DNA from: Methylonatrum kenyense
GTDB taxonomy: Bacteria > Pseudomonadota > Gammaproteobacteria > Nitrococcales > Aquisalimonadaceae
Length of the DNA stretch: 64,000 nucleotides
Assembly (NCBI RefSeq): GCF_023195885.1
Contig: NZ_JALPKO010000004.1
Span: 1-64,000 of the forward strand
Reading direction: 5' to 3'
Shown: positions 4,742 through 64,000 of the stretch, in pieces
Layout of the letters: every line of letters starts with the position of its first letter
Numbering within the stretch: position 1 is the first letter of the stretch
Program-made: the position numbers and the translations under genes
Notes under the pieces: generated by a model
Databases searched by the model: none
Seen by the model: the letters and a program-made list of their open reading frames with translations, nothing else
Told to the model about the DNA's origin: nothing

Positions 4742-4746
4742 GGCGG

Positions 4747-5334: not shown

Positions 5335-5403
5335 CGTTCAATCACTCCAGTGATCCAGTGTTTGTCCTGTTGCACGTATGCTGCGGGATGCGGAGTGCGG
5401 TTG

Positions 5404-5706: not shown

Positions 5707-5721
5707 ACGATCCGGTCCTGA

Positions 5722-6066: not shown

Positions 6067-6120
6067 CGTGCTGCAACGCGTGACCGATTGATGATTTATC
6101 GTATCGTGTCGGACAGTAGC

Positions 6121-6176
6121 TAAGGAAACGCTGATCTATTCGGGCGCAGACGCGCGAATAGATCAGCGTTTCCCTA
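6121..6176. repeat. Family A repeat A2 (short palindromic form)
   Basis: Two perfect 19-base inverted arms, GGAAACGCTGATCTATTCG (6124-6142) and its complement (6155-6173), flank a 12-base loop GGCGCAGACGCG. The outer TAA/TTA bases nearly extend the stem. This is the two ends of family A brought together with the middle missing. It lies in the divergent gap between the DUF4124 gene and the telA operon, ending 26 bases before the chosen start of the next gene, so it probably falls in that promoter or leader. Confidence 0.85.
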
Positions 6177-6202
6177 AACACGGGTTGTGTGGGCGTGACG
6201 CG

Positions 6203-7135: not shown

Positions 7136-7137
7136 TC

Positions 7138-8328
7138 ATGAGCAAGGATCGGAACCAGTCACCCCCGGACAATCGGCCACTGGCGCTGGAGGTGCCGGAT
7201 GCCGCCGATGCCCCGGCGGCAGGCGACGAGACGATTTCCGACCCCGAGCTGGAGGCGCGGGCACGGGCCTTCGTTGACGAAATCCTCCGTGGTGTCGATA
7301 CCCATGCCGGGGCCCGGCAGCGAATCGACGGCATGGGCATCGAGGTCCAGCGGCAGGCAGCCTACCGCAGCGACATGTTGCGCGCACCGATACGCCAGCT
7401 GGCCGGCCAGGGCAGTGATCAGGGACCGGTGTCGGATGGGCTGAACACCTTGCGCCAGCAGATGACGCGCCTGGATCCCGCGCGGCAGGCGCCGCAGGGC
7501 GGACCGCTGGCACGTCTGCTGGCGCGGATTCCGGGTGTCCCCAGTCCCTTGCAGCGCTATTTCCGGCGTTTCGAAACCGCCCAGGACGCGCTGGATGCGG
7601 TGATCCGGGACCTGGAATCGGGTGCGGAACGGCTGCAACGGGATAATCTGACGCTGGCCGATGATCAGCAGGCGTTTCGCAGCATCGGCTCCGACCTGGA
7701 GGAACAGATCCGCCTGGGGCGGCTGATCGATGGCCAGCTGGTCGAGGCATCCGATGACGAAGCCGTTGCGCCGGACCAGCGGCGGTTCATTCGCGAGGAA
7801 TTGCTGTTTCCCTTGCGGCAGCGGATTACCGATCTGCAGCAACAACTGGCAGTGACCCAGCAGGGTGTGCTCGCGCTGGAAGTCCTGATTCGCAATAACC
7901 GGGAACTTGTCCGCGGCGTCGAGCGCGCCATCAATGTCACCACGTCGGCGTTGAATGTCGCCGTTACGGTTGCGCTGGCGCTGGCCAACCAGCGCCTGGT
8001 GCTGGAGCGGGTGGACGCGGTCAACAGGACCACGTCGGATCTGATTTCCGGCACTGCCACGGCGCTGAAACAGCAGGGTGCGGAGATCCAGAATCGTGCC
8101 GGCAGCGCCACGCTGGACATGGAACAACTGGAGCAGTCGTTCCGCCAGGTGCTGGATGCGATCGAGGATGTGTCACGTTACCGGGAGGAGGCACTGCCGG
8201 TGTTGGCGCAGCAGATCCAGCGCATGGACGCCATGGCGCGGGAGGGCCAGGCGGCCATCCACCGGCTGGATGAGGGGAGTGCCGCCAATCGCGAAACCCG
8301 ATCCGGCGAGGACGATTCCGCCCATTGA
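7138..8328 (+). CDS. telA: TelA family (toxic anion resistance) protein
   Basis: About 396 residues, all helical, without membrane segments. TelA-family blocks are present: PLQRYFRRFETAQ, LESGAERLQRDN, EELLFPLRQRI, DLQQQLAVTQQGVLALE, IRNNRELVRGVERA and VALALANQRLVLE. Members were named for tellurite resistance, but the molecular role is unclear; envelope stress is often suggested. A GAGGGA eight bases before ATG 7138 favours that start over the overlapping GTG at 7132. It is co-transcribed with the preceding membrane coiled-coil gene. Family A copy A3 lies between its stop and convergent cysH. Confidence 0.85.
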   Translation: MSKDRNQSPPDNRPLALEVPDAADAPAAGDETISDPELEARARAFVDEILRGVDTHAGARQRIDGMGIEVQRQAAYRSDMLRAPIRQLAGQGSDQGPVSDGLNTLRQQMTRLDPARQAPQGGPLARLLARIPGVPSPLQRYFRRFETAQDALDAVIRDLESGAERLQRDNLTLADDQQAFRSIGSDLEEQIRLGRLIDGQLVEASDDEAVAPDQRRFIREELLFPLRQRITDLQQQLAVTQQGVLALEVLIRNNRELVRGVERAINVTTSALNVAVTVALALANQRLVLERVDAVNRTTSDLISGTATALKQQGAEIQNRAGSATLDMEQLEQSFRQVLDAIEDVSRYREEALPVLAQQIQRMDAMAREGQAAIHRLDEGSAANRETRSGEDDSAH

Positions 8329-8360
8329 CGGCAATGAGCGGAGCGGCGACACGGTCCGCC

Positions 8361-8431
8361 TAGGGAAACGCTGACCAGATGACCACAACCGGTCTCGGGC
8401 GCAGGCGCGGGAATAATTCAGCGGTTCCCTA
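8361..8431. repeat. Family A repeat A3, overlapping the cysH stop codon
   Basis: Begins TAGGGAAACGCTGACC and ends GAATAATTCAGCGGTTCCCTA, with the internal segment GGTCTCGGGCGCAGGCGCG shared with copies A1 and A5. It lies between convergent telA and cysH. Its right terminal TAG, read on the minus strand (8431-8429), is the stop codon of cysH. Confidence 0.85.
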
Positions 8432-9151
8432 AAGGTGCAGGCCGCACTCCGTCTTCGGCTTGCCCTGCCAGCGGCCGCTACGTCCCTCGCCCTTGACGGT
8501 GCAGTGCGAGCATCCGATGGAGTGATAGCCCTCGGACACCAGCGGGTGGAACGGCAGGTCGTGTTCGCGGATGTAGGCGTCCCGTTCCTCGCGGGTCACG
8601 TCGATCATCGGGTTGAACTTGATGATGCCGCGTCGCTCCTCGAAAACGTCCAGTTCGGCCCGGTGGTCGGTCTGCCAGCGCATCAGGCTAGAGGTCCAGA
8701 CGTGGTAGTCGCCCTTGACCTCTTCCAGCGGTTGCACCTTGTTTACCGAGCAGCACAGATCCGGGTCGGACTCGTAGAGCTTCTGCCCCTTGGCGAAGCG
8801 GAAATGGTGCGAATCCGGACGGATATCCTCGACGGTCAGGCCGAACAGTTTCGCCAGATAATCCCGGTATTCCAGGGTCTCGCGGAAATGAAATCCGGTA
8901 TTGATGAAGTGGATCACCTGTTCCGGCCGAATCCGCGAAATGATGTGCAGGAAGTAGGCCGATGTCGCCGCGAACGACGAGGTCACCAGCACCTTGTCGG
9001 GGTCAAAGTCCTGGTACACGCGCCGGATGCGCGCCTCGAAGTCCAGTGGCGCATATTCCGCGTTGAGGTCGGCTATGGCCTCCGCGGTGAGTCCGGCGGA
9101 ATTGGTCACCGGCTCGGCTTCTTCGGTTACCGTCTGCAGCGTGCTTTGCAT
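8429..9151 (-). CDS. cysH: Phosphoadenylyl/adenylyl-sulfate reductase with iron-sulfur motif
   Basis: A 240-residue assimilatory reductase that reduces activated sulfate to sulfite with thioredoxin or glutaredoxin. SSFAATSA is the nucleotide loop. The 4Fe-4S ligand set CC (133-134) plus CxxC (C214, C217) is present, which in this family usually marks APS rather than PAPS reductases. The catalytic C-terminal ECGLHL (C236) is intact. I chose ATG 9151; a TTG start at 9190 would add 13 residues. The TAG stop is contributed by family A copy A3. It is divergent from hemH. Confidence 0.92.
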   Translation of the reverse strand: MQSTLQTVTEEAEPVTNSAGLTAEAIADLNAEYAPLDFEARIRRVYQDFDPDKVLVTSSFAATSAYFLHIISRIRPEQVIHFINTGFHFRETLEYRDYLAKLFGLTVEDIRPDSHHFRFAKGQKLYESDPDLCCSVNKVQPLEEVKGDYHVWTSSLMRWQTDHRAELDVFEERRGIIKFNPMIDVTREERDAYIREHDLPFHPLVSEGYHSIGCSHCTVKGEGRSGRWQGKPKTECGLHL

Positions 9152-9228
9152 CGTTCCGGGTATCGCTGATGGCTTCTCTGAGACAGGCAAGGATACGGAT
9201 TAACTCGGCAGGAAAAAGGAATATGTAA

Positions 9229-9256
9229 TTGTATGGATATGCTGCGGCGGCATAAT
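9229..9256 (+). promoter_or_regulatory. Possible hemH promoter
   Basis: TTGTAT (9229-9234), a 16-base spacer and CATAAT (9251-9256) resemble a sigma-70 promoter reading toward hemH. The -10 region lies inside a GC-rich hairpin (GGCGG ... CCGCC). Confidence 0.35.
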
Positions 9257-9373
9257 CAGCCCGCCGCCGGGCCGACTGGCGTATCGGTTGACGACCGGAA
9301 CCCGATTCGGCAGATGCTGTCTCGGGAAGGGCATCGCCCACGCCATCCCATCATTGAAAGGAGTCTCGGTACT

Positions 9374-10474
9374 ATGCGGTATTCCGCAAAGCAAGGATTC
9401 ACGCATGAGGATACGCCCCGGCTTGGCGTGCTGATTGCCAACCTGGGGACGCCGGACGCGCCCACGCCGAAGGCCTTGCGTCGCTATCTGGGTGAGTTTC
9501 TCAGCGACCCTCGGGTGATCGAGGTGCCGCGGATCCTGTGGCGGATCATCCTGCACGGTATCGTGTTGCGCACGCGGCCGGCGAAGTCCGCCAAGGCGTA
9601 TCAGGAAGTCTGGACCGAGGACGGCTCGCCGTTGCTGCAGATTGCCAGGGCACAGACGCGCGGCATTGCGGAACGGCTAGCAAAGCGGGTCAGTGGGCCG
9701 ATTGCCGTCGAGCTGGGTATGCGCTACGGCAATCCGTCGATCGCCTCGGCACTGGAGTCGCTGCGCGACCAGGGCGCCGAGCGGCTGATTATGCTGCCGC
9801 TGTACCCGCAATATTCCGGTTCGACCACGGCATCGACCTTCGACGCCCTGGCGGACACCATGAAGGGTTGGCGCTGGGTGCCGGAGTTGCGGATCATCAA
9901 CCAGTATGCGGACGACGAGGCCTATATTGCGGCGCTGGCCAACTCGATTCGCGAGCATTGGGAGCAGCGCGGCCGCGGTGAAAAGCTGCTGTTCTCGTTT
10001 CACGGCACACCACGCCGCTACCTGTTGAATGGTGACCCGTACCACTGCCAGTGCCACAAAACGGCGCGGCTGGTGGCTGAAAAGCTGGAGCTTTCCGCCG
10101 ACAGTTGGCAGGTGTCATTCCAGTCGCGTTTCGGCCGTGAGGTCTGGCTGCAGCCCTACACCGACGAGACGGTGATGGCGCTGGGCAAGCAGGGGCTGAA
10201 GACCTTGGACGTGATCTGCCCGGGTTTTTCGGCAGACTGCCTGGAGACAATCGAGGAAATCGAGGGCGAGAATGCCGAATACTTCGAGGAATCCGGCGGC
10301 AAGGAGCTACGCTACATCCCGGCGCTGAATGCGCGGGGCGATCATCTCGACATGCTGACCAACCTGATCCTCGATCACGCCCAGGGCTGGCCGGAAACCG
10401 GCTCGCGCACCCGCGGCGTTCGTGATGAGGCTGCCACCGGTCGGCGCGCACGCGAGATGGGCGCCGAGGCCTGA
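9374..10474 (+). CDS. hemH: Ferrochelatase
   Basis: A 366-residue enzyme that inserts Fe(II) into protoporphyrin IX, the last step of heme synthesis. The start is LGVLIANLGTPDAPT, typical of the family. LPLYPQYSGSTTAS and FSFHGTPRRYL (metal-side H210) follow, then ICPGFSADCLETIEEI with the catalytic acidic residues. I chose ATG 9374 because AAAGGAG lies about 10 bases upstream; the frame is open back to 9233, which would add 47 poorly conserved residues. The C-terminal tail after RGDHLDML is Arg-rich and probably disordered. Confidence 0.95.
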   Translation: MRYSAKQGFTHEDTPRLGVLIANLGTPDAPTPKALRRYLGEFLSDPRVIEVPRILWRIILHGIVLRTRPAKSAKAYQEVWTEDGSPLLQIARAQTRGIAERLAKRVSGPIAVELGMRYGNPSIASALESLRDQGAERLIMLPLYPQYSGSTTASTFDALADTMKGWRWVPELRIINQYADDEAYIAALANSIREHWEQRGRGEKLLFSFHGTPRRYLLNGDPYHCQCHKTARLVAEKLELSADSWQVSFQSRFGREVWLQPYTDETVMALGKQGLKTLDVICPGFSADCLETIEEIEGENAEYFEESGGKELRYIPALNARGDHLDMLTNLILDHAQGWPETGSRTRGVRDEAATGRRAREMGAEA

Positions 10475-10528
10475 GCAAGTGGTTCCCGGGTTCCGCTTTG
10501 TCGAAAGCTCCAGTTAGACTGGCGCGCT

Positions 10529-10544
10529 TTAGGAAACACTGATG
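10529..10544. repeat. Family A terminal fragment A4
   Basis: TTTAGGAAACACTGAT matches the family A terminus (TAGGGAAACACTGAT) with one base missing, and no further family sequence follows. It sits 23 bases before the parvulin gene, in its leader. Confidence 0.5.
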
Positions 10545-10566
10545 CACACAGCAGCGAGGGCATGAC

Positions 10567-10848
10567 ATGGCGAAGGCAAGCGCACGACACATTCTGGTGG
10601 CTGATGAGGCCCTGTGTCAGGAACTGAAGACCCGTATCCAGAATGGCGAAGGGTTCTCCACCCTGGCGCAGGAATATTCCAGTTGCCCCTCGGGGCGCGC
10701 TGGCGGTGATCTGGGAAGCTTTGGCCCGGGTCAGATGGTGCGGGAATTCGACGAGGTTGTGTTCTCGGCGCCGCTGAACCAGGTCCAGGGTCCGGTGAAG
10801 ACCCAGTTTGGCTATCATCTGCTGGAAGTCACCGAGCGCAGCGACTGA
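10567..10848 (+). CDS. ppiC: Parvulin-type peptidyl-prolyl cis-trans isomerase (PpiC)
   Basis: A 93-residue single-domain rotamase without a signal peptide, so cytoplasmic. The parvulin fold is clear: ARHILVADEALCQEL, GEGFSTLAQEYSSCPSGRAGGDLG and FGPGQMVREFDEVVFSA, then FGYHLLEVTER. Length matches E. coli PpiC (93 residues). It stands alone between fragment A4 in its leader and long copy A5 seven bases behind its stop. Confidence 0.93.
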   Translation: MAKASARHILVADEALCQELKTRIQNGEGFSTLAQEYSSCPSGRAGGDLGSFGPGQMVREFDEVVFSAPLNQVQGPVKTQFGYHLLEVTERSD

Positions 10849-10854
10849 AGGCTT

Positions 10855-11265
10855 AGGGAAACACTGATTTATTCGCACGCCTGCGTTGGAGTCCGCATTT
10901 TTCTCCGAGGCAAGGCGCGGTGCGCCGCGTGAGGGTGATTCCCTCGTCCAGCGCCGCAACGCCGCAGGGCAGTGAATCCGGCGGTCACCCGCGGGGCTCG
11001 GGCCGTTCTTCCGCCTGGCGGTGTCGCAGGCCACCCCGGGTAGCACCACTACCCAAGGTGACCTGCTCCTGGCCAGCCGCAAGAACGGCACACGAGCGCG
11101 GCAGCGTGCGACGGTGCATGCTTGCCTCTGGTCGGGCCGGTTTTGGCCCCTGGCTGTGTTGCGCTACCGGCCCGGTAGCTACGGCTACCGAACCGGCACC
11201 GCGCCTTGCCAGATGCCCAAAACCGGTCTCGGGCGCAGATGCGGGAATAAATCAGCGTTTCCCTA
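10855..11265. repeat. Family A repeat A5 (long form, about 410 bp)
   Basis: Terminal inverted repeats TAGGGAAACACTGATTTATTC and GAATAAATCAGCGTTTCCCTA bound a GC-rich, non-coding middle. Internal blocks include GGCAAGGCGCGGTGCGCCGC, GTGATTCCCTCGTCCAGCGC, GTAGCACCACTACCC, GCGTGCGACGGTGCATGCTT and AAAACCGGTCTCGGGCGCAG. The same blocks occur in inverted orientation in A8. No frame with start signals runs through it. It fills the 420-base gap between ppiC and the palindrome behind imuB. Confidence 0.85.
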
Positions 11266-11318
11266 GGCGGGAACCGACCAGTGTCCGCCGATCGGCGGAC
11301 ACTGGTCGGTTCCCGCCT
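11265..11318. repeat. Perfect 54 bp palindrome behind imuB
   Basis: The arms (27 bases each, AGGCGGGAACCGACCAGTGT-CCGCCGA and its exact complement) meet with no loop at 11291/11292. The palindrome ends three bases from the imuB stop (11322) and its first bases coincide with the right terminus of family A copy A5. No T-tract follows on either strand, so a simple intrinsic terminator is not obvious. It could be a cruciform, a very strong RNA hairpin or a protein-binding site. Confidence 0.9.
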
Positions 11319-11321
11319 GTT

Positions 11322-12752
11322 TCAGCCGAAGTAGCCATGCAGAAACCAGCGCCCGGGGTGTCGCCGATCCCGGAAGACCCATAGCCGGCTGCCGTCCGCA
11401 GCCTGTGCCTGATAATAGTCGCGGCTGATGTCCTGGCCGTCCCACCAGCCTCCTTCGATGCGCTCCGGTCCCTGGCAGAGCTGCAGCCGGCCACGGTGTT
11501 CGGGCAGGCCGTCGCGGCATGCCAGTGGTTTCGGCTCGGGCAACAGCCAGAGTGGTCTGTGCGGGCTGGCGGTCTGCTGTCTGTCGCCGGCGGGTGCCGG
11601 CATGTGCCAGGCCCGTTCGGGGCGGTGATCCGGAGCCGTGCCGAGACCACTGATAGCGGTGTCGCCCAGGCGCGCACCCAGACGTTCGGTCAACTGCTGC
11701 CACGACATCCGGGCGGCTTGTCCCTGCTGCAGCAAATCGGCGGGCCGTGCGGCCAGTGGCAGCAGATGCCGGGCCTCCAGGATCAGGCCGGTCACCGGGG
11801 CCTTTAGCGGCGTGCGCTGCAGCCGCTCGTTTGCCACGGCAAGCAGGCGTTCAACATCACGACTCGGGTCCTGCAGACCAAGCAGCAGCAGGGTTGCGGC
11901 ATGATCTTCGTGCTGCAATTGCAGGTGCACCCGCTGCACGCCGGCCTGCAGGCTGATCAGCAATGCCCGCAGATCCTGCAGCAGACGTTGCAGGGCGAAG
12001 AGCACGGCGGTGCTGTCATGCGCGGCTGCCGGCAGGGCCAGTTCGCCGTGAAAAACCGGTCGTGGGCGGTGACTCGGGCGCGGGTCCGGCCGTTCGCCCA
12101 GGGCGCGTTGCAGTTGCTCACTCAGTGTTCCGCCCAGCCGTCGGCCCAGTTCCGCAGACGGCAGTCGCAGGCAGTCACCCAGGGTTTGCAGCCCCAGTCC
12201 GCTCAATGCCCTGGTCTGCTCGGGCGTGAGTTCCAGTACCTGGATGGGCAATGCGGCCAGTTGTTCTGCCAGTGCGGCACGTTGTGTCAGCAGGGTGCCG
12301 CCCCCGGCCCGGCAGAACAGACCGGCCGCGGCGGCGGTGGGTGCGACTGCGGTTTGCCAGTGCAGCCCAAGTTGCTGCAAATGCGCATTCAGCTGCTGCT
12401 GCAGGCCGGTCATGCCACCGAACAGTCGCAAGCTGCCGCCGATCTCCAGCACCAGTTCCAGGGGCGGTTGACGGCTGACCCAGCCGCTGAACTGCAACAG
12501 ACCGTCGGCCAGCCGGCGCAGACTGTCCTGTTCCAGATGCGGTTTGCGTTGCACCAGTTGCAGCTCCGGGCACAGGCTGCGTGCCTGGGCCGGGCGCATG
12601 CCGGGGCATACGCCTTCGGCGGCGGCCGTGCGACTGACGGCGAGCAGGCGCTGTCCGTCGATTACCGCCATCAGGGGCTCGTCGGCACAGCCGCGGCGGA
12701 ACACGTCCAGCGGCAGCTCGGGAAAGCGCAGTGCCTGCCAGAGCAGGGCCAT
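11322..12752 (-). CDS. imuB: ImuB, Y-family DNA polymerase-like mutagenesis protein
   Basis: A 476-residue protein related to DinB polymerases but catalytically inactive in known members. It acts as the hub of the ImuA-ImuB-DnaE2 mutasome in SOS translesion synthesis. The N-terminus FPELPLDVFRR and LELVLEIGGSLRLFGG correspond to polymerase motifs; the acidic SxDE motif is replaced by GGS. AVAPTAAAAGLFCRAG and the little-finger-like segment with MSWQQLTERLGARLG follow. The C-terminus RDYYQAQAADGSRLWVFRD is typical of ImuB. It follows imuA at a 20-base gap. No dnaE2 is present in this window. Confidence 0.93.
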   Translation of the reverse strand: MALLWQALRFPELPLDVFRRGCADEPLMAVIDGQRLLAVSRTAAAEGVCPGMRPAQARSLCPELQLVQRKPHLEQDSLRRLADGLLQFSGWVSRQPPLELVLEIGGSLRLFGGMTGLQQQLNAHLQQLGLHWQTAVAPTAAAAGLFCRAGGGTLLTQRAALAEQLAALPIQVLELTPEQTRALSGLGLQTLGDCLRLPSAELGRRLGGTLSEQLQRALGERPDPRPSHRPRPVFHGELALPAAAHDSTAVLFALQRLLQDLRALLISLQAGVQRVHLQLQHEDHAATLLLLGLQDPSRDVERLLAVANERLQRTPLKAPVTGLILEARHLLPLAARPADLLQQGQAARMSWQQLTERLGARLGDTAISGLGTAPDHRPERAWHMPAPAGDRQQTASPHRPLWLLPEPKPLACRDGLPEHRGRLQLCQGPERIEGGWWDGQDISRDYYQAQAADGSRLWVFRDRRHPGRWFLHGYFG

Positions 12753-52684: not shown

Positions 52685-54778
52685 GTGGAACCTGTTAGCA
52701 AGTCTTTCCAGTACGGTGAACACACCGTCACACTCGAAACCGGTGCCATCGCGCGGCAGGCGACCGGGGCCGTCATGGTCAACATGTCCGACACCGTGGT
52801 TCTGGTTACCGTGGTCGGCAAGAAGGATGAACCGGGTCAGCGCGACTTCCTCCCCCTGACTGTCAATTACCAGGAACGGACCTACGCGGCGGGCCGCATC
52901 CCTGGCGGTTTCTTCAAGCGCGAGGGTCGTCCCTCCGAGAAGGAGACCCTGACCAGCCGCCTGATCGACCGGCCGATTCGTCCGCTGTTCCCGACCGGCT
53001 TCTACAACGAAGTGCAGGTGATCGCCACGGTGATCTCGATGAACCCCGACGTGGATCCGGACATCCCGGCGCTGATCGGGGCCTCGGCCGCACTGGCCAT
53101 CTCGGGGATCCCGTTCGATGGTCCGATCGGCGCTGCCCGGGTCGGATATCGCAACGGCGAATACCTGCTCAACCCGAGCTTCAGCAGCCTGGAGACCTCC
53201 GAGCTTGATCTGGTAGTAGCCGGCACCAGTGATGCGGTGCTGATGGTCGAGTCGGAGGCCAGGGAACTGCCCGAGGACGTCATGCTGGGCGCCGTGCTGT
53301 TCGGCCACGAACAGATGCAGAAGGCGATCGCGGCGATCAACGAACTGGCGGCCGAGGCCGGCAAGCCGCGCTGGGACTGGCAGCCCGTGGAGAAGGATCA
53401 GACCCTGGGCGAGGCGGTGGAATCGATGGTCGGCGACGAGTTGCGCGCCGCCTACAGCATCGCCGACAAGCAGGAACGCAGCGATGCGGTTGCCGCCCTG
53501 CGTCAGCGCGTAGTCGAGGAACTGGTGGATGAAGAGGCCGAGGGCCGCACCGCCAACGACGTCGCAGGCGCCTTCAAGACCGCCGAAAAGGAAATCGTGC
53601 GCGGCCGTATCCTGGCCGGAGAGCCGCGGATCGATGGCCGTGACCGCAGCACCGTGCGGCCGATTGACATCAAGGTCGGCGCACTGCCGCGCACCCATGG
53701 TTCGGCGGTGTTCACCCGTGGCGAGACCCAGGCCGTGGTGGTAACCACGCTGGGCACCGGTCGCGACGCGCAGATCATCGATGCCATCGAAGGGGAGCGC
53801 AAGGAACCCTTCATGCTGCATTACAACTTCCCGCCGTACTGTGTCGGCGAGACCGGTTTCATGGGCGGCCCCAAGCGCCGTGAGATCGGGCACGGCAAGC
53901 TGGCCAAGCGCGGCGTGATGGCGGTCATGCCGCAGCCGGAAGACTGCCCCTACGTGATTCGCGTGGTCTCCGAGATCACCGAATCGAATGGTTCCAGCTC
54001 CATGGCCAGCGTGTGTGGCACGTCCCTGGCCCTGATGGATGCCGGCGTGCCGGTGAAGGCCCCGGTAGCGGGTATTGCCATGGGCCTGATCAAGGACGGT
54101 GAGCAGTTCGCCGTGCTGTCGGACATCCTCGGTGACGAGGACCATCTCGGTGACATGGACTTCAAGGTCGCCGGCACCGAGGGCGGCGTGACTGCCCTGC
54201 AGATGGACATCAAGATCAACGGCATCACCCGCGAGATCATGGAGCAGGCGCTGGATCAGGCCAAGGCCGGCCGCCTGCATATCCTTGGCGAAATGGGCAA
54301 GGCGCTTGCCACGCCACGGACCGAGATGTCGGAATACGCGCCGCGCATGCTGACCATCCGTATCGATCCGGAAAAGATTCGTGATGTGATCGGTAAGGGC
54401 GGTGCAACCATCCGTGCCCTGACCGAAGAAACCGGTGCCAGCATCGACATCAAGGATGACGGCACCGTCACCATCGCCTCGGTGGACAAGGCGGCCGGTG
54501 AGGAAGCGCGTCGCCGGGTGGAACTGCTGACCGCCGATGTCGAGGTTGGTCGGATCTACGAAGGTCGCGTGGTCAAGCTGATGGACTTCGGCGCCTTTGT
54601 CAGCATCCTGCCAGGCAAGGACGGGCTGGTGCACATCTCGCAGATCTCCAATGAGCGGGTCGAGAACGTTGCTGATAAGCTCAGCGAAGGGGATGTGGTG
54701 CGCGTCAAGGTGCTGGAGGTTGACCGCCAGGGGCGTGTGCGCCTTAGCATGAAGGCCGTGGAAGAGGCCGAGGCCTGA
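52685..54778 (+). CDS. pnp: Polyribonucleotide nucleotidyltransferase (PNPase)
   Basis: A 697-residue 3'-5' phosphorolytic exoribonuclease. It starts with GTG, with AGAGGA upstream. Two RNase PH-like domains ([37 protein letters not shown]) are separated by a helical linker. Catalytic acids are in [20 protein letters not shown]. The KH domain ([15 protein letters not shown]) and S1 domain ([21 protein letters not shown]) follow. Last gene of the translation operon. Confidence 0.98.
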
Positions 54779-54832: not shown

Positions 54833-54864
54833 GGCCGCTGGTGTTGCTGTCAATGGAGGACGCC

Positions 54865-55557
54865 ATGAGTTGGAATCCCGCTGAACCGCCGATCCGCGCC
54901 TGTGTATTTGATGCCTACGGCACGCTGTTCGATGTTCATTCGGCGGTCGATCGACATCGCGAGCGTATTGGATCGTCGGCCCAGGCGATGAGCGCGCTAT
55001 GGCGCCAGAAGCAGCTGGAATACACCTGGTTGCGCAGTCTGATGGGGCGATACGTCGACTTCGACCGCTTGACCGCGGATGCCCTGGCCTATGCCATGGA
55101 GACCCATGCAATCGACGATCAGGCCCTGACCCGGGACCTGCTGGAGGCCTATCGGGAATTGTCCTGTTATCCGGAGGTGCCGGCCCTGCTGCGGCGCCTG
55201 CGGCAGGCGGGTTTGCCCACGGCGATATTATCCAACGGCACCGAGGCGACCCTGCATCACGCCAGCCGCAGTGCAGGGCTGGACGATGGGCTGGACCGGA
55301 TCCTGTCGGTAGACACCCTTGGCATCTACAAGCCGGATCCACGGGTCTACCAGCTGGCCGTGGATGCCCTGGAGGTGCCGGCGGACCAGATCCTGTTCCA
55401 TTCCTCGAATGCCTGGGATGTGGCCGGTGCTGCCAGCTTCGGCATGCGCGTGGCCTGGATCAACCGCTCCGGGGCATGCGCCGAACGCCTGCCGGATGGT
55501 CCCGATCTGGAGCTGGCCAATCTGGAGCCGATAGCGGATCTGCTACGGCTTCCCTGA
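54865..55557 (+). CDS. Haloacid dehalogenase, type II (L-2-haloacid dehalogenase family)
   Basis: A 230-residue HAD hydrolase. The nucleophile is D16 in CVFDAYGTLFDVHSA. R47, S123-N124-G125 (ILSNGTEA), K156 (GIYKPDPRVY) and SSNAWDVAGA (180-189) with D185 correspond to the L-2-haloacid dehalogenase site. Activity on haloacids is plausible but unproven, since relatives act on other substrates. ATG 54865 follows GGAGG at five bases. It is monocistronic and convergent with the sensor kinase. Confidence 0.88.
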   Translation: MSWNPAEPPIRACVFDAYGTLFDVHSAVDRHRERIGSSAQAMSALWRQKQLEYTWLRSLMGRYVDFDRLTADALAYAMETHAIDDQALTRDLLEAYRELSCYPEVPALLRRLRQAGLPTAILSNGTEATLHHASRSAGLDDGLDRILSVDTLGIYKPDPRVYQLAVDALEVPADQILFHSSNAWDVAGAASFGMRVAWINRSGACAERLPDGPDLELANLEPIADLLRLP

Positions 55558-55562
55558 CGATT

Positions 55563-58337
55563 TCAGGCGAGCTGCGGCGATGCCTCGCCGATGCGTACGT
55601 CCGAGTGCTCACCCCCAGCCTCGGGCAGCAGGACCACGAATGTCGCGCCTTCACCGGGTGCGCTTTCCAGTGAAATCTTGCCCCAGTGCAGTTCGGCAAT
55701 GCGCCGGCAAATGGCCAGCCCCAGGCCGCTGCCCTTGGGCTTGCCGGCCTGCTGATCGCTGATCTGGTGGAACTTCTCGAACACCCGGTCCTTCTCTTCC
55801 GGTGCCACGCCGGGGCCATGGTCCCTTACCCGCAATTCAATCCCGCGCCGAGTCCGTGACCACGACACCTCGACGTCGCCACTCTCCGGGTCGGTGAATT
55901 TCACGGCGTTGGACAGCAGGTTGATGACCAGCTGGATCAGGCGATCGGCATCGCCCTTGATGTTGCAGGGATAGTCCGGCGACCGGATCGCAAGCCCGAC
56001 CTTGCGATCGCTGAACAGCTGCGAGGTCGCGCGCCGCGCCGAGTCCACGATTTCGCCCAGTTCCAGGTCTCGCAGCCGCCATTCGCCCCAGCCGCTTTCG
56101 ATCTTGGACAGGTCCAGCACCTGATTGATCAGCCGGGTCAGGCGTTCGCTTTCGGCAACGATAACGCTCAGGAACTCTTCCTGTTGCTGCCGCGGCACCT
56201 CGGCGTCGTCCTGCAGGATTTCGGCGAAGGCGCGGATCGAGGTCAACGGTGTGCGCAGTTCATGGCTGACCATGGACACGAACTCGTCCTTCAGTCGATC
56301 CAGCTCCTGCAACCGCTCATTGGCCGCACGCAGTTCCGCGGTGGCCTGCTCCAGCTCCCGCGACTTTTCCTCCAGCCGGTGGCTGTACTCGATGGCCTGC
56401 GAGGTGGCGTCGAGCAGTTCCATCACCCCCTCGAAGGTCAGGGCCTCGCCCTTGACGATGGACGACACCATGACCCGTGCCGATGCGGAGCCGATGTTGC
56501 CGGACAGCAGGCGTTCCGCCTGGTTCAGCAGTTCCGCAGGCACCTCGTCATCGGGGCGCAACGGGTGCTTGCGACGGGCACTGAAGCTGCGAATCGCGCC
56601 TGCGGCCTGGTCCGGTCCGATGAAGCGGGCGAGCAGGGCCTCGAGGTCGCCGACGCTGGTGGTGCCCTGCCAGAAACGCGCATCGCGCTCGGAGCGCAGG
56701 AACACGTCGACGAACAGGGCAGCCTGGATCCGCTCGATATTGCTTTGCCGGTCGTACAGCGAGATCAGCACCAGGCCCCCGATATTGAACAGCCAGCTCC
56801 AGAACAGGGCGTGGGTTATCGGACTCATGCCCTCCACGCCGAACAGGCTGTACGGGGCCAGCCAGGTGATGCCGAACGGACCGTCCTCGACCAGGCTGAC
56901 CGGTAACCAGCCCGGTTCCACCAGCGACGGCAGGAACAGCGTGTACAGCCAGATCAGGAAGCCCGAACCCAGCCCGAACAGGGCGCCGCGCCGGCTGGCG
57001 CCCTTCCAGTACATCCCGATCAGGATCGGAGGCGCGAACTGGGCCACGGCAACGAATGAAATCAGGCCGATGCTGACCAGCGCATAAGCATCGGCGATCA
57101 GGCGGAAATAGGCATAGCCCAGGAACAGCAGCGCAACGATGATGACGCGGCGCAGATTGATGATTAGCCGTTGCAGACCGATGCGTTCGATGATCGGCAG
57201 GTGCTGCATGCGCAGCAGTGCGGGCATCACCAGGTCATTGCTGACCATGATGGCTAGCGCGATGGTGGCGACGATGACCATGCCGGTGGCGGCGGAGAAA
57301 CCGCCCAGATAGACGAACAGGGCCAGCAGTTCGCGACCCTCGGCCAGCGGCAGGGCAAGCACGAAGTTGTCCGGATTCACCGAGCCGTCGCCGAAGTAGA
57401 GCAGGCCGGCCACCGCGATCGGCAGCACAAACAGGTTGATCAGTAGCAGATACAGCGGGAACAGCCATGCGGCGGTGCGGATATGGTCCTCGTTGACGTT
57501 CTCCACCACCGTGACCTGGAATTGCCGTGGCAGGAACATGATGGCCGCCATCGACAGCAGGGTCAGCGCCATCCAGTTGCCATAGCCGCCCGGCAGGCCG
57601 GAAAACGACAACAGCTCCTGCAGCGCCGGCACCGCGGAGGCCTGGAAAAACAGGTCCGCCGGGCCGTTGAACAGCATGAAGGTGACGAAAACACCGACCG
57701 CGAGGAAGGCCAGCAGCTTGATCACCGACTCGAAGGCCACCGCCACCACCATGCCTTCCAGCCGCTCAGTGGCGTCGATGTGTCGGGTGCCGAACAGGAT
57801 CGAGAAGGCGGCCAGCACCACCGCGACCCAGAGTGCCTTGTCCTGGACGATGGGCGCGGTGCTCTCGCCCACCGCATTAGCGGCCTCGGGGAAGGTCAGC
57901 AGCACGTCGAAACTGGCCGAGACCGCCTTCAACTGCAGTGCGATGTAGGGGGTAATGCCGATCACCGCGATGAAGGTGGCCAGCCCGCCCAGCAGCATGC
58001 TCTTGCCGTAGCGCGAGGCAATGAAGTCGGCGATGGAGGTGATCCGGTGCACCTTGCTGATGCGGATCATCTTGCGCAGCACCAGCCACCAGAGTGCCGC
58101 CATCAGCGTCGGCCCCAGGTAGATGGTCAGAAAGCTGACGCCGTCCTCGGCGGCCCGCCCGACGCTGCCGTAGAACGTCCAGGCAGTGCAGTAGACCGCG
58201 ATGGACAGGGTGTAGATGTACGGGTTGCTGACCAGGGAACGCGCCGTGTAGGCGCGCCGATCCGCGTAGTATGCAATTGCGAACAGCAGGCCCAGATAGA
58301 GGAACGGCGTCAGCAGGATGGCCCATTGCGGCAGCAT
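55563..58337 (-). CDS. Sodium/solute symporter-histidine kinase fusion (CbrA/CrbS-like)
   Basis: A 924-residue sensor. Residues 1-530 form an SSS-type symporter module with about 13 helices (RSLVSNPYIYTLSIAVYCTAW in pieces, FLPRQFQVTVVENVNEDH). A PAS-like/coiled-coil linker spans 610-685. HisKA has phospho-acceptor H692 (MVSHELRTPLTSI). The ATPase domain has N-box NLLSNAVKF, DHGPGV (839-844) and GSGLGLAI (869-876). It has no receiver domain. Relatives CbrA and CrbS sense nutrients such as histidine or acetate. Last gene of the minus-strand unit, one base behind the small membrane gene. Confidence 0.92.
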   Translation of the reverse strand: MLPQWAILLTPFLYLGLLFAIAYYADRRAYTARSLVSNPYIYTLSIAVYCTAWTFYGSVGRAAEDGVSFLTIYLGPTLMAALWWLVLRKMIRISKVHRITSIADFIASRYGKSMLLGGLATFIAVIGITPYIALQLKAVSASFDVLLTFPEAANAVGESTAPIVQDKALWVAVVLAAFSILFGTRHIDATERLEGMVVAVAFESVIKLLAFLAVGVFVTFMLFNGPADLFFQASAVPALQELLSFSGLPGGYGNWMALTLLSMAAIMFLPRQFQVTVVENVNEDHIRTAAWLFPLYLLLINLFVLPIAVAGLLYFGDGSVNPDNFVLALPLAEGRELLALFVYLGGFSAATGMVIVATIALAIMVSNDLVMPALLRMQHLPIIERIGLQRLIINLRRVIIVALLFLGYAYFRLIADAYALVSIGLISFVAVAQFAPPILIGMYWKGASRRGALFGLGSGFLIWLYTLFLPSLVEPGWLPVSLVEDGPFGITWLAPYSLFGVEGMSPITHALFWSWLFNIGGLVLISLYDRQSNIERIQAALFVDVFLRSERDARFWQGTTSVGDLEALLARFIGPDQAAGAIRSFSARRKHPLRPDDEVPAELLNQAERLLSGNIGSASARVMVSSIVKGEALTFEGVMELLDATSQAIEYSHRLEEKSRELEQATAELRAANERLQELDRLKDEFVSMVSHELRTPLTSIRAFAEILQDDAEVPRQQQEEFLSVIVAESERLTRLINQVLDLSKIESGWGEWRLRDLELGEIVDSARRATSQLFSDRKVGLAIRSPDYPCNIKGDADRLIQLVINLLSNAVKFTDPESGDVEVSWSRTRRGIELRVRDHGPGVAPEEKDRVFEKFHQISDQQAGKPKGSGLGLAICRRIAELHWGKISLESAPGEGATFVVLLPEAGGEHSDVRIGEASPQLA

Positions 58338-58623: not shown

Positions 58624-60744
58624 TCAGAATGCCCCCTGCCGGCGCCGCACCTCCACCATGCGGTCGGCTGCATCAATGGCCTGCTCCAGGGTCAGGATAT
58701 CCCGAGCCGCCAGCAGTTCAATCATGCGTGTAAAGATGCCGGCCGTGACCAGGGCGTCACCCAGTGCCGTGTGCCGGCCCTCGATGTCGACGCCAAGCCG
58801 CCAGGCAATGCTCTCCAGCGTGTGTTCAGGCGTGTGGTCATGCAGGAACACCGAAAGCAGCAGCGTGTCCAGCACCGGGTTGTCAAAGCGGAGGCCGCAG
58901 TGCGCTTCCTTCATTCGCAGGAACTTCATGTCGAAGGCAGCGTTGTGCGCAACCAGTACCGCACCGTCGACGAAGGCATGAAATTGCGGCAGCACCTGCT
59001 CGATGCCGGCTTGGTCGGCGACCTGTTCGTCGGTAATGCCGTGGAAGCGGGTGGAGTTGCGCGGAATCGGTCGGCCGGGGTTCACCAGTCGATCGAATGT
59101 TTCGCCGCGCAGGATGCGACCGTTCATCACCCGCACACCGGCAAGGGAAATGATTTCGTCGCCGCCGGATGGTGACAGGCCCGTGGTTTCGGTATCGAAC
59201 ACGACGAGGTTGAGCCGGTCCAGGCGCTGCTGTGCCAGGACGTCCAGATCGGCCGCCTGGTCCGCCAGCGAGAAATCGTAGAACTCCGGGCGCGCGGGAG
59301 GCGTCGGGCTTGGCGTCTGCCACTGGCGCCGCGAGGCCGGCAGGGGCAGACGCAGCACTGCTCGTCCCCGGTCGACCGGGTGCGGACGGCTCCAGGCGGT
59401 GCTGCCATGGCGTTCCAGGACCTGTTGCGCGGTGCTCGCGCCGGTCAGCGCCGGCAGCGGTTCGGACAGCCAGTGATCCAACGTCGCGGCGGCCACCGGT
59501 GGTCCGTTCCAGAGTATCTCCAGGTAGACGCGCTGATCACCGAGCATGGCTTCGATCAATGCGGCACGCACCCGGTGGTCGCGTCGCAGCCGGCTCAGCA
59601 GGTGATCCAGCACCAGGCTCACCGAATGGATCTCGGCGTGCAGCCAGAGGGGGATGCCGCGTTCCCTCAGGCGCGGCAGTTCGGCGCCGCCCCGCAGGCG
59701 GACGCTGGTGATCAGGTCGGAGGACTGGATGTCGGCCATGGTCCAGGGGGCCGAGACGAAGCGCTGGCTTTCACTGGCCATGTGGTCAAAACGGCGACTG
59801 AGTTCCCGGCTCTCGCGGGCGATCAGTTCCTCGAACATCCGTCGATCGGTCTCGTCCAGATCCGTTTCCAGCACGATGTTCTCGGCCGCGGCGCGCAGAT
59901 TGGCCAGCGGGGCGCGTAATGATTCCACGGCTTCGCGCAGCATCTGGTCGCGACGGGACAGGGCGTGGACCTTGCGGGTGACATCGTCGAACGACAGCAG
60001 GAAGGTCGACCGCAGGGGCGAGTCTGCCGGCAGCAGACTCATCCGGCAGTGCAGCAGCAGGCCGTCGTCGTGCGTGGTGCAGACAAATTCCGCCTCGCGT
60101 TCGGCATCGGCGTCGTCCTGGCAGCGCAGGCGCAGGAGCTGCAGGGTCTGTTCCACAGGTGTACGCGCCCAGATTGCATACAGCGAGCGGCCCAGGCCGA
60201 TGGCCTCGGTACCGTCGAGGATGGCGACTGCGGCCGGGTTGTAGAGCAGGATGCGGCCCTCGTAATCGCAGACCACCACGCCCTCGCGGATGCCGCGCAG
60301 CACGGTCTCCAGTCGTGCCTTCTGGTCCTCGGTGTCGGCAGCGCCGGCCGACATCGCCTTGGTGACTTCCCGCCTGCAGGCGTAGAGTTCGGTGCCCAGG
60401 CCTTGCAGTTGCTCCGGCAGGTCGCCAAGCAGGTGGTGCTCCGGTATTTCCAGCTCATGTGGCGCACGTGCCTGACGCATGATTCCGGCGCCGCGGGACA
60501 GCGCGCCCAGTGGTCTGACAAGACAGTAGTCGATCAAGGCGAAGACGATTGCCAGCAGGGCAATGCCGGCGCAAGCGGCGACGACGGTTAGAAACAGGCC
60601 GCGGGTCTGCTGTTGTGCGCTGTCCAGGGAGGGCCAGATCGAGGCCAGCAGTAGTGAGGTCAGCAGCAACAGGGCCAGCGCCAGACAGCCGAACACCAGC
60701 CACAGCAGCAGGCGGGCCGAGAGCCTGTGACCGGCAAGGGTCAT
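58624..60744 (-). CDS. Membrane pseudo-sensor fused to a DEDDh 3'-5' exonuclease
   Basis: A 706-residue protein. Two membrane helices (about 11-35 and 49-72) are followed by a HAMP-like linker and a PAS domain (about 145-255). A HisKA-like helix reads [13 protein letters not shown] at 273-285, where the histidine of SHELRTPL is replaced by Glu. A degenerate ATPase-like region extends to about 470. A DnaQ-like exonuclease follows with D517/E519 (FDTETTG), D605 ([10 protein letters not shown]) and H658/D663 (HTALGD), so the nuclease is complete. It overlaps the response-regulator gene by four bases. Confidence 0.9.
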
Positions 60745-61124
60745 GCGTCGCCCAGAAGCTGGCGCACCTTGGTCACGACATCCTGGGTGGAAAACGGTTT
60801 GGTGATGTAGTCGTCTGCACCAAGCGACAGACCCTTCTCCCGTTCCACGTCACGACCCCGGGCGGTTAGCATGATAATCCGCAGGTCTGCGGTATCGTCC
60901 CGCTCCCGCAGTATCTGGCAAACCTGATAGCCGTCCTTGCGCGGCATCATCACGTCCAGCAGCAACAGATCAGGCTTGCGTGCCTCGATGGCTGCCAGCG
61001 CTTCCTCGCCGTCGCTGGCGGTGCTCACCTCGTAGCCGCGCCGCCGCATCAGGAATTCCAGCGAGAGCACGATGTTCGGCTCGTCATCGACGATCAGGAT
61101 ATGTTTTGCGGCGTTCTCTGACAT
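60741..61124 (-). CDS. Single-domain response regulator
   Basis: A 127-residue CheY-like receiver with acidic pocket D13/D14 (LIVDDEPN), phospho-acceptor D57 ([13 protein letters not shown]), T87 and K109 (YITKPF). It has no output domain. Its stop overlaps the start of the pseudo-sensor/exonuclease gene. The kinase two genes downstream is the obvious candidate phosphodonor; the target is unknown. Confidence 0.93.
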
Positions 61125-61210: not shown

Positions 61211-63061
61211 CTACAGGCCGAAGCGCGCCTGCAGTGCGTTCTGGAACCGTTTGACCGCGTGCATGCTCATGCGCAGGCTTTCCAGTGCCAGCGGATCAAG
61301 ACTGTCGGTGCGAATTTTCTTGTCGGGCTCCTCGCCGGCCTCCGCCTGACGGATCTGGTGATCCAGTAGCAGGTCCATCAGCTCGGCCTGGGCGGCGATC
61401 ACGGTATCGACGAAATCCGCGTCCAGCACGCCCTGGCGGACGAGCCCGCGGAGCCGCTCCAGGGTGTTCGTGTCGCTGATGCCGGCACTGACGGCGAAAA
61501 TCCGCGCGGCGTTGTCGATCAGTCGCAGTCCCTGGCGTTTGACATCGACGCGGCTACCGGTCTTGTCATCGTCGGTGGTCAGCAGGCGCCGGAACAGGCC
61601 GATGGCCGGGCTGCCCTCGGCATCGTCCGCGGTCATGAAACCCAGCAGTCGCGGGCGTTTCGCCAGGGTCTTCAGGATGTGGCTCCAGAGCCTGCTGTAC
61701 AGCCGCGCATCGCCGTAGAGCAGATCGAAATCCAGCATGATATTGGCCCAGCGGGCCACTTTCTCGTTCGGATGACGGGCCACCTGGTCGATCTGCCGAC
61801 ACCAGTCGCCCAGCGTTTTCTGGTAGGCCGGGTTGCGCGCCATGATGTCGCCGGGGCAGAGGATGTAGCCGGCCGTGTCCAGGTTGCGATTGAAGCGATC
61901 GGTGAATACCTCGAACCAGCGCCGTTCCTCCGCGGAGAGATTGCCGTCCTCGTCATCCAGGATGATGCCGTTGTCCTGGTCCGGATTGAGCAGCATTTCC
62001 CGGCGGCCGCCCGAGCCCATGATAATCAGTGCATAGGCGCGCGGCGCCTCGCCGAGATCCTCGTCCCGCAGTTCCTGCAGGGTCAGTTCCGCGCAACGCC
62101 GCTGGATCGCCAGGTGGAAATCACTGAGCAGCAGTACCGCCCGGTTGGCATCGCGGTTCCGCAGCCAGGCGTCGCGTGCGAACGTGGCCACGTCGTCGTA
62201 GATTCGACGCAGTGCCGCCGGCGAATCACAGGCCGTGATGTCCTCAAGCAGGGCGTTCTGCTGCGCCAGCAGGGCCTGCAGGATGTTGGTCTGCGACAGC
62301 ATGCCCACCGGGCGCTGCTCGTCGACCACCACCAGGTACTTGACGCGACGCCGCTTCTGCACGGCCTCCGCCCGCCAGAGCGGTGTTTCCGGCGTGACCG
62401 TCTCGGCCTCCTGGCAGGCGACCGCGACGCTGGCATCGGTGGAGGCGCCGTCGACCAGCGTCGCACGGGCCAGACTGGCTAGGGTAACGACACCTTGCAG
62501 ATGTCCGTCCTCGTCCAGCACCCCGAGGCTGCCGATCTTGCGCTCGTGCATGGCCTGGAAGGCTTCGATAAGGGTCCACTCGGCAGTGCAGCTTGCCAGC
62601 GGCGCGTTCATCACGCGGGCCACCGTCTGCGCCAGCGCTCCGCGTGGTCCGCTGTCGTTCTGCAGGCTGTGCGCGCGAATCCGCCCGCTGATAATGCGAT
62701 TGAGCGTGCCGGCGATTTCGGGGTGATCGGATTCCAGCGCCCGGATGCGTTCGAAGGGCAGGCGCAGCATTACGCCCGGGCGTAGCGCGATGGCGGCCCC
62801 GTAGTAGCCTGAATCCTGTTCCAGATAGCGGTCCAGGCCCAGCACCAGCCCGGGACCGGAGCGTGTGCGTCCGCCGTCGGCGGCGTATAGCTCCACGGCC
62901 CCGCGCCAGAGAATCAGCAGCTCGTCATTTGCCGGGTCCTGCTCGATGCGTTCGCCGGGTTCCAGCTCGGTTCTCGACGCGGCTGCCAGCAGCGCATTCA
63001 ACGAGTCCTCCGGCAGATGCTGGAAATCCGCTGGTGCGGTTTCTGCTTCGGCGGAATACAT
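61211..63061 (-). CDS. cNMP-binding-like/CBS/DUF294 nucleotidyltransferase-like protein
   Basis: A 616-residue soluble protein. A degenerate cyclic-nucleotide-binding fold spans about 10-135 and paired CBS domains about 150-270. A DUF294 nucleotidyltransferase-like domain has MGSGGRREMLLNPDQDNGIIL (348-368) with D361 and D363, and a DUF294 C-terminal domain follows. ATG 63061 has AAGGAG 10 bases upstream; the frame runs further but only through family A sequence. This family commonly accompanies acetate permease-type transporters. First gene of the leftward five-gene unit. Confidence 0.9.
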   Translation of the reverse strand: MYSAEAETAPADFQHLPEDSLNALLAAASRTELEPGERIEQDPANDELLILWRGAVELYAADGGRTRSGPGLVLGLDRYLEQDSGYYGAAIALRPGVMLRLPFERIRALESDHPEIAGTLNRIISGRIRAHSLQNDSGPRGALAQTVARVMNAPLASCTAEWTLIEAFQAMHERKIGSLGVLDEDGHLQGVVTLASLARATLVDGASTDASVAVACQEAETVTPETPLWRAEAVQKRRRVKYLVVVDEQRPVGMLSQTNILQALLAQQNALLEDITACDSPAALRRIYDDVATFARDAWLRNRDANRAVLLLSDFHLAIQRRCAELTLQELRDEDLGEAPRAYALIIMGSGGRREMLLNPDQDNGIILDDEDGNLSAEERRWFEVFTDRFNRNLDTAGYILCPGDIMARNPAYQKTLGDWCRQIDQVARHPNEKVARWANIMLDFDLLYGDARLYSRLWSHILKTLAKRPRLLGFMTADDAEGSPAIGLFRRLLTTDDDKTGSRVDVKRQGLRLIDNAARIFAVSAGISDTNTLERLRGLVRQGVLDADFVDTVIAAQAELMDLLLDHQIRQAEAGEEPDKKIRTDSLDPLALESLRMSMHAVKRFQNALQARFGL

Positions 63062-63083
63062 GGCGGAGCGACTCCTTGCCTTA

Positions 63084-63126
63084 TGATTTATTCGCACGCC
63101 GGCGCTGGAACAGATCAGCGTTTCCG
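63084..63126. repeat. Family A remnant A10
   Basis: TGATTTATTCGCACGCCGGC followed by GCTGGAACAGATCAGCGTTTCC joins a left end lacking its GGGAAACAC terminus to a right end. It lies in the 478-base divergent gap 63062-63539, directly upstream of the ribosome site of the DUF294 gene. The rest of the gap contains a TTGACA (63326-63331) without a clear -10 and a hairpin GCACTT / AAGTGC (63460-63478); I see no gene. Confidence 0.7.
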
Positions 63127-63539
63127 TATCCGATTCCTGCAAACGGTTTCCAATCTGGTGCCGAAACTCGGGGAACATCTGGCTTTCGCCTCATTATCGC
63201 GTAAGTGCCGGCCTTTCCAAGCCGAGTACCGCCGGTGTTACCAATGGCAACGCTTTTGTCGCTATCGGGTAACGTCTGGGACATTTTGTCTGCCTGTTGC
63301 CAGGCCGCGACGGGCGAAAAACGGCTTGACAATCAGTTTTCGCCGGAACCGGCATGATATTCGCCTTGCCAACGACTAGCCTTTCAGGAAGTGCGGGGTG
63401 ATTGCCGCGTTTTCGTCAGGCGTCCGCACCATGGCAAGGCGCGAACGCGGCAACCATCGGCACTTTGCTGAGAAGTGCGGGTGCCGCGGCGGGTCCCATC
63501 CGCCCGGACGACGATAAGAATGCCGAGGGGGAGAATGTC

Positions 63540-64000
63540 ATGTCAGCTATGGCCTGGTGGCTACTTATATTTGTAGGGCTTTATTGGTCCTACTGTATTT
63601 TCTGGGGCATCAAGGGCGCACTCTGGGCGCGCACCGCGAGTGACTATTTCGTCGCCGGTCGACAGGTCAGCATGTGGGTGTTCATGCTGGCGGCGACGGC
63701 CACGTCATTTTCGGGCTGGACGTTTGTCGGCCATCCCGGCCTGATCTACGTTGACGGGTTGCAGTACGCCTACGCGTCCTTCTACGCCATCACCATCCCG
63801 TTCACGGGCATGGTGTTCCTCAAGCGCCAATGGATGATCGGTAAACGCTGGGGCTATGTCACGCCCGGCGAGATGTTCTCGGATTATTTCCGGTCCGAGT
63901 CCATCCGCATGCTGATCCTGGTGGTCGCGCTGATCTTCGCCGTGCCCTATCTGGGCATTCAGCTCCGAGCCTCGGGCTTCCTGTTCAACGTGCTGACCGA
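63540..64000 (+). CDS. Sodium/solute symporter family transporter (5' part, runs off the window)
   Basis: The first 153 residues of an SSS-family permease, incomplete at the right edge. Membrane segments are about 5-27, 45-65, 75-95 and 122-142. ASDYFVAGRQVSMWVFMLAATATSFSGWTF in context is the SSS N-terminal signature, and WGYVTPGEMFSDYFRSES follows. GGGGGAG lies six to eight bases upstream of ATG 63540. It is divergent from the DUF294 gene. Monocarboxylate or acetate is a likely substrate class by neighbourhood, not by sequence. Confidence 0.9.
   Translation, partial: MSAMAWWLLIFVGLYWSYCIFWGIKGALWARTASDYFVAGRQVSMWVFMLAATATSFSGWTFVGHPGLIYVDGLQYAYASFYAITIPFTGMVFLKRQWMIGKRWGYVTPGEMFSDYFRSESIRMLILVVALIFAVPYLGIQLRASGFLFNVLT

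Follow-up and report, generated by a model that had tools for sequence, protein, structure and literature searches.

The gene at 58624-60744 of the window (the whole 64,000-nt stretch of Methylonatrum kenyense DNA analysed here) encodes a membrane protein in which a histidine-kinase-like module that has lost its kinase motifs is fused to a DnaQ-type exonuclease with all of its catalytic residues. Judged from its own sequence and those of its relatives, the fusion combines a pseudokinase that has been maintained with a nuclease that appears competent, and across the genes compared retention of its DHp hairpin is tied to the presence of an adjacent receiver gene. We put at about 0.55 the probability that it acts as a membrane-bound, receiver-controlled exonuclease, a reading drawn from sequence, structure models and analogy in which a kinase would phosphorylate the receiver, the receiver would dock on the DHp hairpin, and the exonuclease would be switched so as to tune monocarboxylate uptake with or against a DUF294 nucleotidyltransferase. 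The features of the fusion are as follows.

58624..60744, minus strand: pseudo-histidine-kinase/DEDDh exonuclease fusion, ATG start, 706 aa
60514..60717, minus strand: two membrane helices, residues about 10-77 (sequence and AlphaFold2 model)
59974..60291, minus strand: PAS domain, residues about 152-257 (borderline Pfam PAS_8/PAS_4 and modelled fold)
59758..59979, minus strand: DHp-like helical hairpin, residues 256-329 (model, profile alignment and family alignment)
59923-59925, minus strand: E274 at the phospho-acceptor site, with R277 at +3
59335..59736, minus strand: CA-like domain, residues 337-470, without the N-box Asn and the G1 Asp
59266..59292, minus strand: near-invariant linker motif RPEFYDF-x-L, residues 485-493
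58732..59211, minus strand: DnaQ/PolC-type DEDDh exonuclease core, residues 512-671 (D517, E519, D605, H658, D663)

Read from its N terminus, the protein thus consists of two transmembrane helices, a PAS domain, histidine-kinase-like DHp and CA domains, and the exonuclease. RNase_T is the sole strong Pfam match (residues 514-671, E 7e-38); PAS_8 is borderline, scoring 21.7 bits against a cut-off of 21.8, HisKA reaches only 13.7 bits against a cut-off of 26.9, and the Pfam search returned no match to HATPase_c. Despite these weak scores, a kinase-like fold is seen in an AlphaFold2 model made from 71 aligned sequences (mean pLDDT 85.7), in which helices 10-39 and 43-91, separated by a short loop and with no periplasmic domain, lead into a signalling helix, the PAS domain (residues 155-254 in the model), the DHp hairpin, a CA-like alpha/beta domain and the exonuclease (residues about 500-705), with the placement of these domains relative to each other uncertain at a pTM of 0.50. 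By Foldseek, the kinase-like part resembles the WalK, ThkA and HK853 kinases and the last part resembles PolC/DnaQ exonucleases, the exonuclease superimposing on 9qrn with an rmsd of 1.5 A over 188 columns. The original prediction, made from the sequence alone, had described two membrane helices and a PAS domain, which agree with the modelled helices and PAS fold, a degraded ATPase region, as borne out by the missing HATPase_c match, N-box Asn and G1 Asp, and a full set of DEDDh residues, each of which is indeed present.

Loss of the kinase motifs is family-wide. From a set with one genome per species (84,980 species), eighty relatives were retrieved, which together with the query gave a first alignment of 81 full-length members. 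Profile-profile alignment of the fusion with the cores of the neighbouring SLC5-type kinases (hhalign, 99.6%, E 7e-24) agrees with AlphaFold2 and Foldseek that the DHp and CA fold is retained, places E274 at the phospho-acceptor His, R385 at the N-box Asn and W412 at the G1 Asp, and reveals a shortened F-box/ATP-lid region, so the fusion has neither the H-box His nor the N-box Asn and G1-box Asp of an active HisKA kinase. Among the 81 members, the phospho-acceptor column holds Glu in 62, Arg in 6, Gln in 3, Asp, Val, Met and Ile in 2 each, and Asn and His in 1 each; the G1 Asp column is Trp in 80, and the N-box Asn column is mostly R/Q/H/K. The one member with His at the phospho-acceptor site (L076) is without the G1 Asp, and no homologue retaining both the His and the ATPase motifs was found among the 81. 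The fusion should therefore not autophosphorylate, as had been proposed, and the same three residues are lost in divergent homologues too. The accompanying claim of a His-to-Glu replacement held in part, in that loss of the His is near-universal and Glu is favoured at the site but not universal. Glu as a strict requirement was rejected, as 16 of 81 receiver-adjacent members have other residues, and a tie between Glu and an adjacent receiver (Fisher p 0.001) was not supported by phylogenetically independent pairs. HisKA phosphatases use a Thr or Asn at +4 of the H-box His. This residue is missing from the corresponding position (A278) in at least 79 of the 81 members, a finding that speaks against the pseudokinase acting simply as a phosphatase. 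New residues have become invariant or nearly so, namely W367, W412, W425, H446, R465 and the linker RPEFYDF.

The five exonuclease residues D517, E519, D605, H658 and D663 are each intact in 81/81 members of this first set, with no sign there of an inactive nuclease domain, and with both the D-E-D-H-D set and the DEDDh fold in place the nuclease is apparently competent, as predicted from sequence and model. One small branch (L106/L107) has kept the pseudokinase and lost the exonuclease residues. A small branch represented by L163 (8118-10193) and L164 (662-2737) likewise retains the pseudokinase without the exonuclease catalytic residues, and has no DUF294, receiver or SLC5-type kinase gene close by.

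The fusion gene lies in a cluster with the following neighbours.

60741..61124, minus strand: single-domain response-regulator receiver, directly upstream of the fusion gene
61211..63178, minus strand: DUF294 nucleotidyltransferase with cNMP-like and CBS domains, true start likely near 63061
55563..58337, minus strand: CrbS/CbrA-like sensor histidine kinase of the SLC5 type, HisKA and HATPase_c intact, without a receiver domain
63402..63998, plus strand: divergent SLC5 (ActP-like) symporter, running off the window, true start likely 63540

Two plus-strand genes face the SLC5-type kinase and were identified by eye from their sequence, one polynucleotide phosphorylase-like (52685-54778) and one HAD-family hydrolase-like (54841-55557). 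Where at least 3.5 kb of flank was available in both directions (54 loci), a receiver gene was present in 45, an SLC5-type kinase in 40 and DUF294 in 38, and DUF294 was found in 19/20 later loci. The co-located, near-complete SLC5-type kinases carry the H-box, N-box and G2 motif in 51/51 cases, a strict G1-box pattern missing 3 of them, and no receiver domain follows the HATPase domain in the C-terminal tails examined, which leaves the stand-alone receiver as their natural target. Alpha-, beta- and gammaproteobacteria share this layout, as do a few MAGs that carry Nitrospirota or Desulfobulbaceae labels (labels as given, binning unchecked). With shortened forms included, the family was matched in 22/369 sampled Gammaproteobacteria genomes and in 51/398 sampled Pseudomonadota genomes. 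On plasmid 1 of Paracoccus denitrificans PD1222, DUF294 (PDEN_RS25395), an 81-aa two-TM protein, the SLC5-type kinase (25405), the receiver (25410) and the fusion (25415) form a tight operon, in which the fusion is annotated 'exonuclease domain-containing protein'. The 81-aa protein (L183, 5018-5263), which lies between DUF294 and the kinase and has no Pfam match, is possibly a small symporter-accessory subunit. The M. kenyense genome itself has a second copy (L160, G000:C3:10500-30000, 4658-12229) in the order DUF294, SLC5 symporter, DUF294 and pseudokinase/exonuclease, the last a 43% identical paralogue of the fusion with no receiver beside it, and a further DUF294 gene that overlaps a stand-alone DEDDh exonuclease gene (L159, G000:C24:114500-130500, 7155-9814). 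The conserved neighbours (SLC5-type kinase, SLC5 symporter and DUF294) point towards monocarboxylate uptake as the process under control, and the distribution of the fusion loci suggests a widespread signalling system for organic-acid uptake.

The pairing of DUF294 with exonuclease genes bears on what the exonuclease may cut. DUF294 genes were surveyed in 143 gammaproteobacterial genomes, and a DEDDh exonuclease gene lay next to DUF294 on the same strand in 20 of the 30 best loci (19 stand-alone and 1 fused paralogue), each viewed with flanks of only about 1.5 kb. In L143-L162 the exonuclease gene is directly downstream of DUF294, and the pair is often accompanied by another DUF294 gene and by an SLC5 symporter. 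The module DUF294-SLC5-DUF294-exonuclease is recurrent, and in L160 the fused pseudokinase-exonuclease occupies the exonuclease slot. Both Asp residues (DxD) of the DUF294 catalytic motif GSxGRxE...DQD are present in 110/110 sequences. In an exonuclease tree with modest supports and few reference exonucleases, most stand-alone DUF294-paired enzymes separate from the fused ones; two exonuclease lineages appear to have joined DUF294, and their common pairing favours a joint nucleotidyltransferase/exonuclease function. L161 (7448-8059) belongs to the fused-type clade but encodes a stand-alone exonuclease of only 203 aa, flanked by an SLC5 symporter and DUF294. Its entire sensor appears to be gone, and the motif at its third catalytic residue is AYHAGFD in place of AHNAAFD.

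The pp_0354/pp_0353 operon of Pseudomonas putida likewise pairs DUF294 with a downstream exonuclease gene of the RNase_T family, and is linked to acetate/pyruvate use and to ActP, ErdR binding the pp_0354 promoter (PMC9927547, PMC8402216); unlike at the fusion locus, no pseudokinase or receiver is described there. At the window locus the receiver gene stands between DUF294 and the exonuclease. The fusion as a simple orthologue of pp_0353 was rejected on the exonuclease tree, whose set did not include the pp_0353 sequence itself, and the pp_0353 phenotype serves as an analogy only, because the DUF294-paired stand-alone exonucleases appear to be another lineage. As such an analogy, the pyruvate growth defect common to the pp_0353 and actP-I mutants (PMC9927547) speaks for the receiver-controlled exonuclease reading.

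A credible alternative, to which we give roughly one chance in three, keeps the receiver control proposed above and has the exonuclease act at the membrane to degrade short oligonucleotides, RNA or DNA, in line with the original prediction, with DUF294 as a separate metabolic regulator. The closest solved relatives, the exonuclease domains of PolC, DnaQ epsilon, ExoX and DinG, all cut nucleic acid, and the authors of the pp_0353 study suggested that this enzyme acts in mRNA decay (PMC9927547). However, nucleic-acid decay would leave unexplained both the frequent DUF294-exonuclease gene order and the pairing common to two lineages, and when given external DNA pp_0353 mutants grow like the wild type. 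A more specific proposal, which we regard as unlikely, is that the exonuclease is a de-nucleotidylase: DUF294 would modify a protein, which might be the SLC5 symporter or the kinase, with a nucleotide or a short tail, and the DEDDh domain would remove this mark, under the control of receiver phosphorylation through the pseudokinase. The invariant DxD of DUF294, the two-lineage pairing and the fused form in the exonuclease slot of L160 are points in its favour. Oligoribonuclease, itself a DEDDh enzyme, hydrolyses the phenolic nucleotide ester pNP-TMP, which is similar to Tyr-NMP (PMC6390093), making nucleotide removal from Tyr chemically conceivable. In P. putida, pp_0353 and actP-I mutants grow poorly on pyruvate and the pp_0354 mutant grows normally (PMC9927547), phenotypes that fit DUF294 imposing, and the exonuclease lifting, an inhibition of the symporter. 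A priori, ordinary nucleic-acid cleavage is more likely than de-nucleotidylation.

Evidence for a receiver partner comes from gene order and from the fate of the DHp hairpin. The fusion and receiver ORFs overlap by four bases (ATGA), as noted at the outset, and the suggestion that a regulatory partner was likely has gained ground: a single-domain receiver gene lies directly upstream on the same strand in 80 of the 97 loci whose upstream sequence is long enough to tell, the two genes usually overlapping by 4 nt, and the receivers retain the phosphorylatable Asp (81/82) and the Lys (82/82). R277 is present in 83/83 receiver-adjacent genes, and A286, F304 and E311 are nearly invariant, indicating that the DHp is constrained despite the missing His. 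If the DHp is kept for receiver binding, it would be expected to degenerate in loci that lack the receiver gene. A DHp profile built from the receiver-adjacent members of the first set was scored on 49 newly fetched genes, and gave a median of 67.6 bits with an adjacent receiver (n=36) versus -1.4 without one (n=13). In the combined 144 genes, which include the training members of the profile and related, non-independent genomes, the DHp is recognisable in 113/114 receiver-adjacent but in 15/30 receiver-less genes, receiver-less meaning that no receiver is adjacent within the stretch seen. The CA domain is found in 114/114 and 24/30, respectively. Phylogenetically independent pairs on supported branches gave 1.9 concordant versus 0.0 discordant of 5, and the other count 4.5 versus 0.1 of 8, with almost no counter-example and too few pairs for significance. 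The single opposite case, L223, has an adjacent receiver and no recognisable DHp, and ten members of the first set retain a good DHp signature with no receiver gene beside them, the M. kenyense paralogue L082 among them, though their genomes may encode a receiver elsewhere.

The pseudokinase might instead be a PAS/membrane scaffold and dimeriser only, with the receiver acting elsewhere and the genes merely co-operonic. The PAS domain is present in 144/144 genes, even where the DHp is gone, and L165 (a shortened gene at 8184-9692) and L214-L218 encode TM-PAS-exonuclease forms of 465-508 aa without DHp and CA, each adjoining DUF294. Yet DHp decay or deletion occurs almost only without an adjacent receiver gene, the PAS and exonuclease domains remaining, as in the receiver-less L213, L231 and L232, where PAS, CA and exonuclease are present and the DHp is gone, and we consider a mere scaffold improbable. 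That the fusion is a decaying histidine kinase of no particular function, as its missing kinase motifs and the additional loss of exonuclease residues in L106/L107 might suggest, is very improbable and was rejected on the conservation pattern, given the near-invariant new residues (W412 80/81, H446 81/81, R485 81/81) and a gene order kept across three proteobacterial classes.

In the favoured reading of a receiver-controlled exonuclease, the SLC5-type kinase next door would sense the transported organic acid and phosphorylate the stand-alone receiver, which would then dock on the DHp hairpin of the pseudokinase much as DivK~P does on DivL. The resulting conformational change, together with the state of the PAS domain, would switch the C-terminal exonuclease on or off, and the exonuclease would act with or against the DUF294 nucleotidyltransferase to tune monocarboxylate uptake. 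Beyond gene order and motif retention we infer every step, from phosphotransfer and docking to which ligand is sensed, which way the switch works and what substrate is cut.

Receiver-reading pseudo-histidine kinases (DivL), SLC5-type kinases (CrbS, CbrA) and DEDDh exonucleases are known already. In literature searches whose coverage left out most subscription journals, we found no description of a pseudo-histidine kinase fused to an exonuclease, of DUF294 together with an exonuclease, or of the receiver link of the fusion and the broad DUF294-exonuclease pairing. If the proposal is right, this two-component pathway would end in an exonuclease controlled by way of a dead kinase, instead of in transcription or a cyclic nucleotide. 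About one in eight of the sampled Pseudomonadota genomes has a match to the family, and the protein carries no annotation beyond 'exonuclease domain-containing protein'. The proposal would also offer a testable answer to the role of the DUF294-exonuclease pair in the acetate/pyruvate regulon, which earlier work left open.

The exonuclease shares its fold and five catalytic residues with DnaQ epsilon and PolC-type enzymes (2p1j, 9qrn, 1j53), but these serve replication, whereas the exonuclease here is attached to a membrane sensor module. The CrbS/CrbR (MxtR/ErdR) acetate switch also has an SLC5-type sensor kinase, with an SLC5 symporter and DUF294 in its surroundings or regulon. CrbS is, however, described as a hybrid kinase and CrbR as a LuxR-family DNA binder, whereas the window kinase has no receiver of its own and the local receiver no DNA-binding domain, so that the window locus lacks the CrbS/CrbR combination of an SLC5-type kinase with its own receiver and a LuxR-type CrbR. 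The closest likeness in mechanism, rather than by orthology, is to DivL-DivK of Caulobacter, in which the His is replaced, the histidine kinase fold is kept, a PAS input is present and the partner is a stand-alone, phosphorylatable receiver (PMC4211667), the putative partner of the fusion being identified by gene adjacency. DivL differs in having no fused enzymatic output, in acting on CckA and in carrying Tyr at the phospho-acceptor site, compared to mostly Glu, a fused exonuclease and an organic-acid locus for the fusion; the CA domain of the fusion is moreover shortened, and its G1 Asp is replaced by Trp. DivL requires an Arg at +3 of the replaced His for binding of DivK~P (PMC4211667), and the fusion has an Arg (R277) at the same position; the DivL principle of a dead kinase that reads a receiver would thus, if the proposal holds, extend to a fused enzyme.
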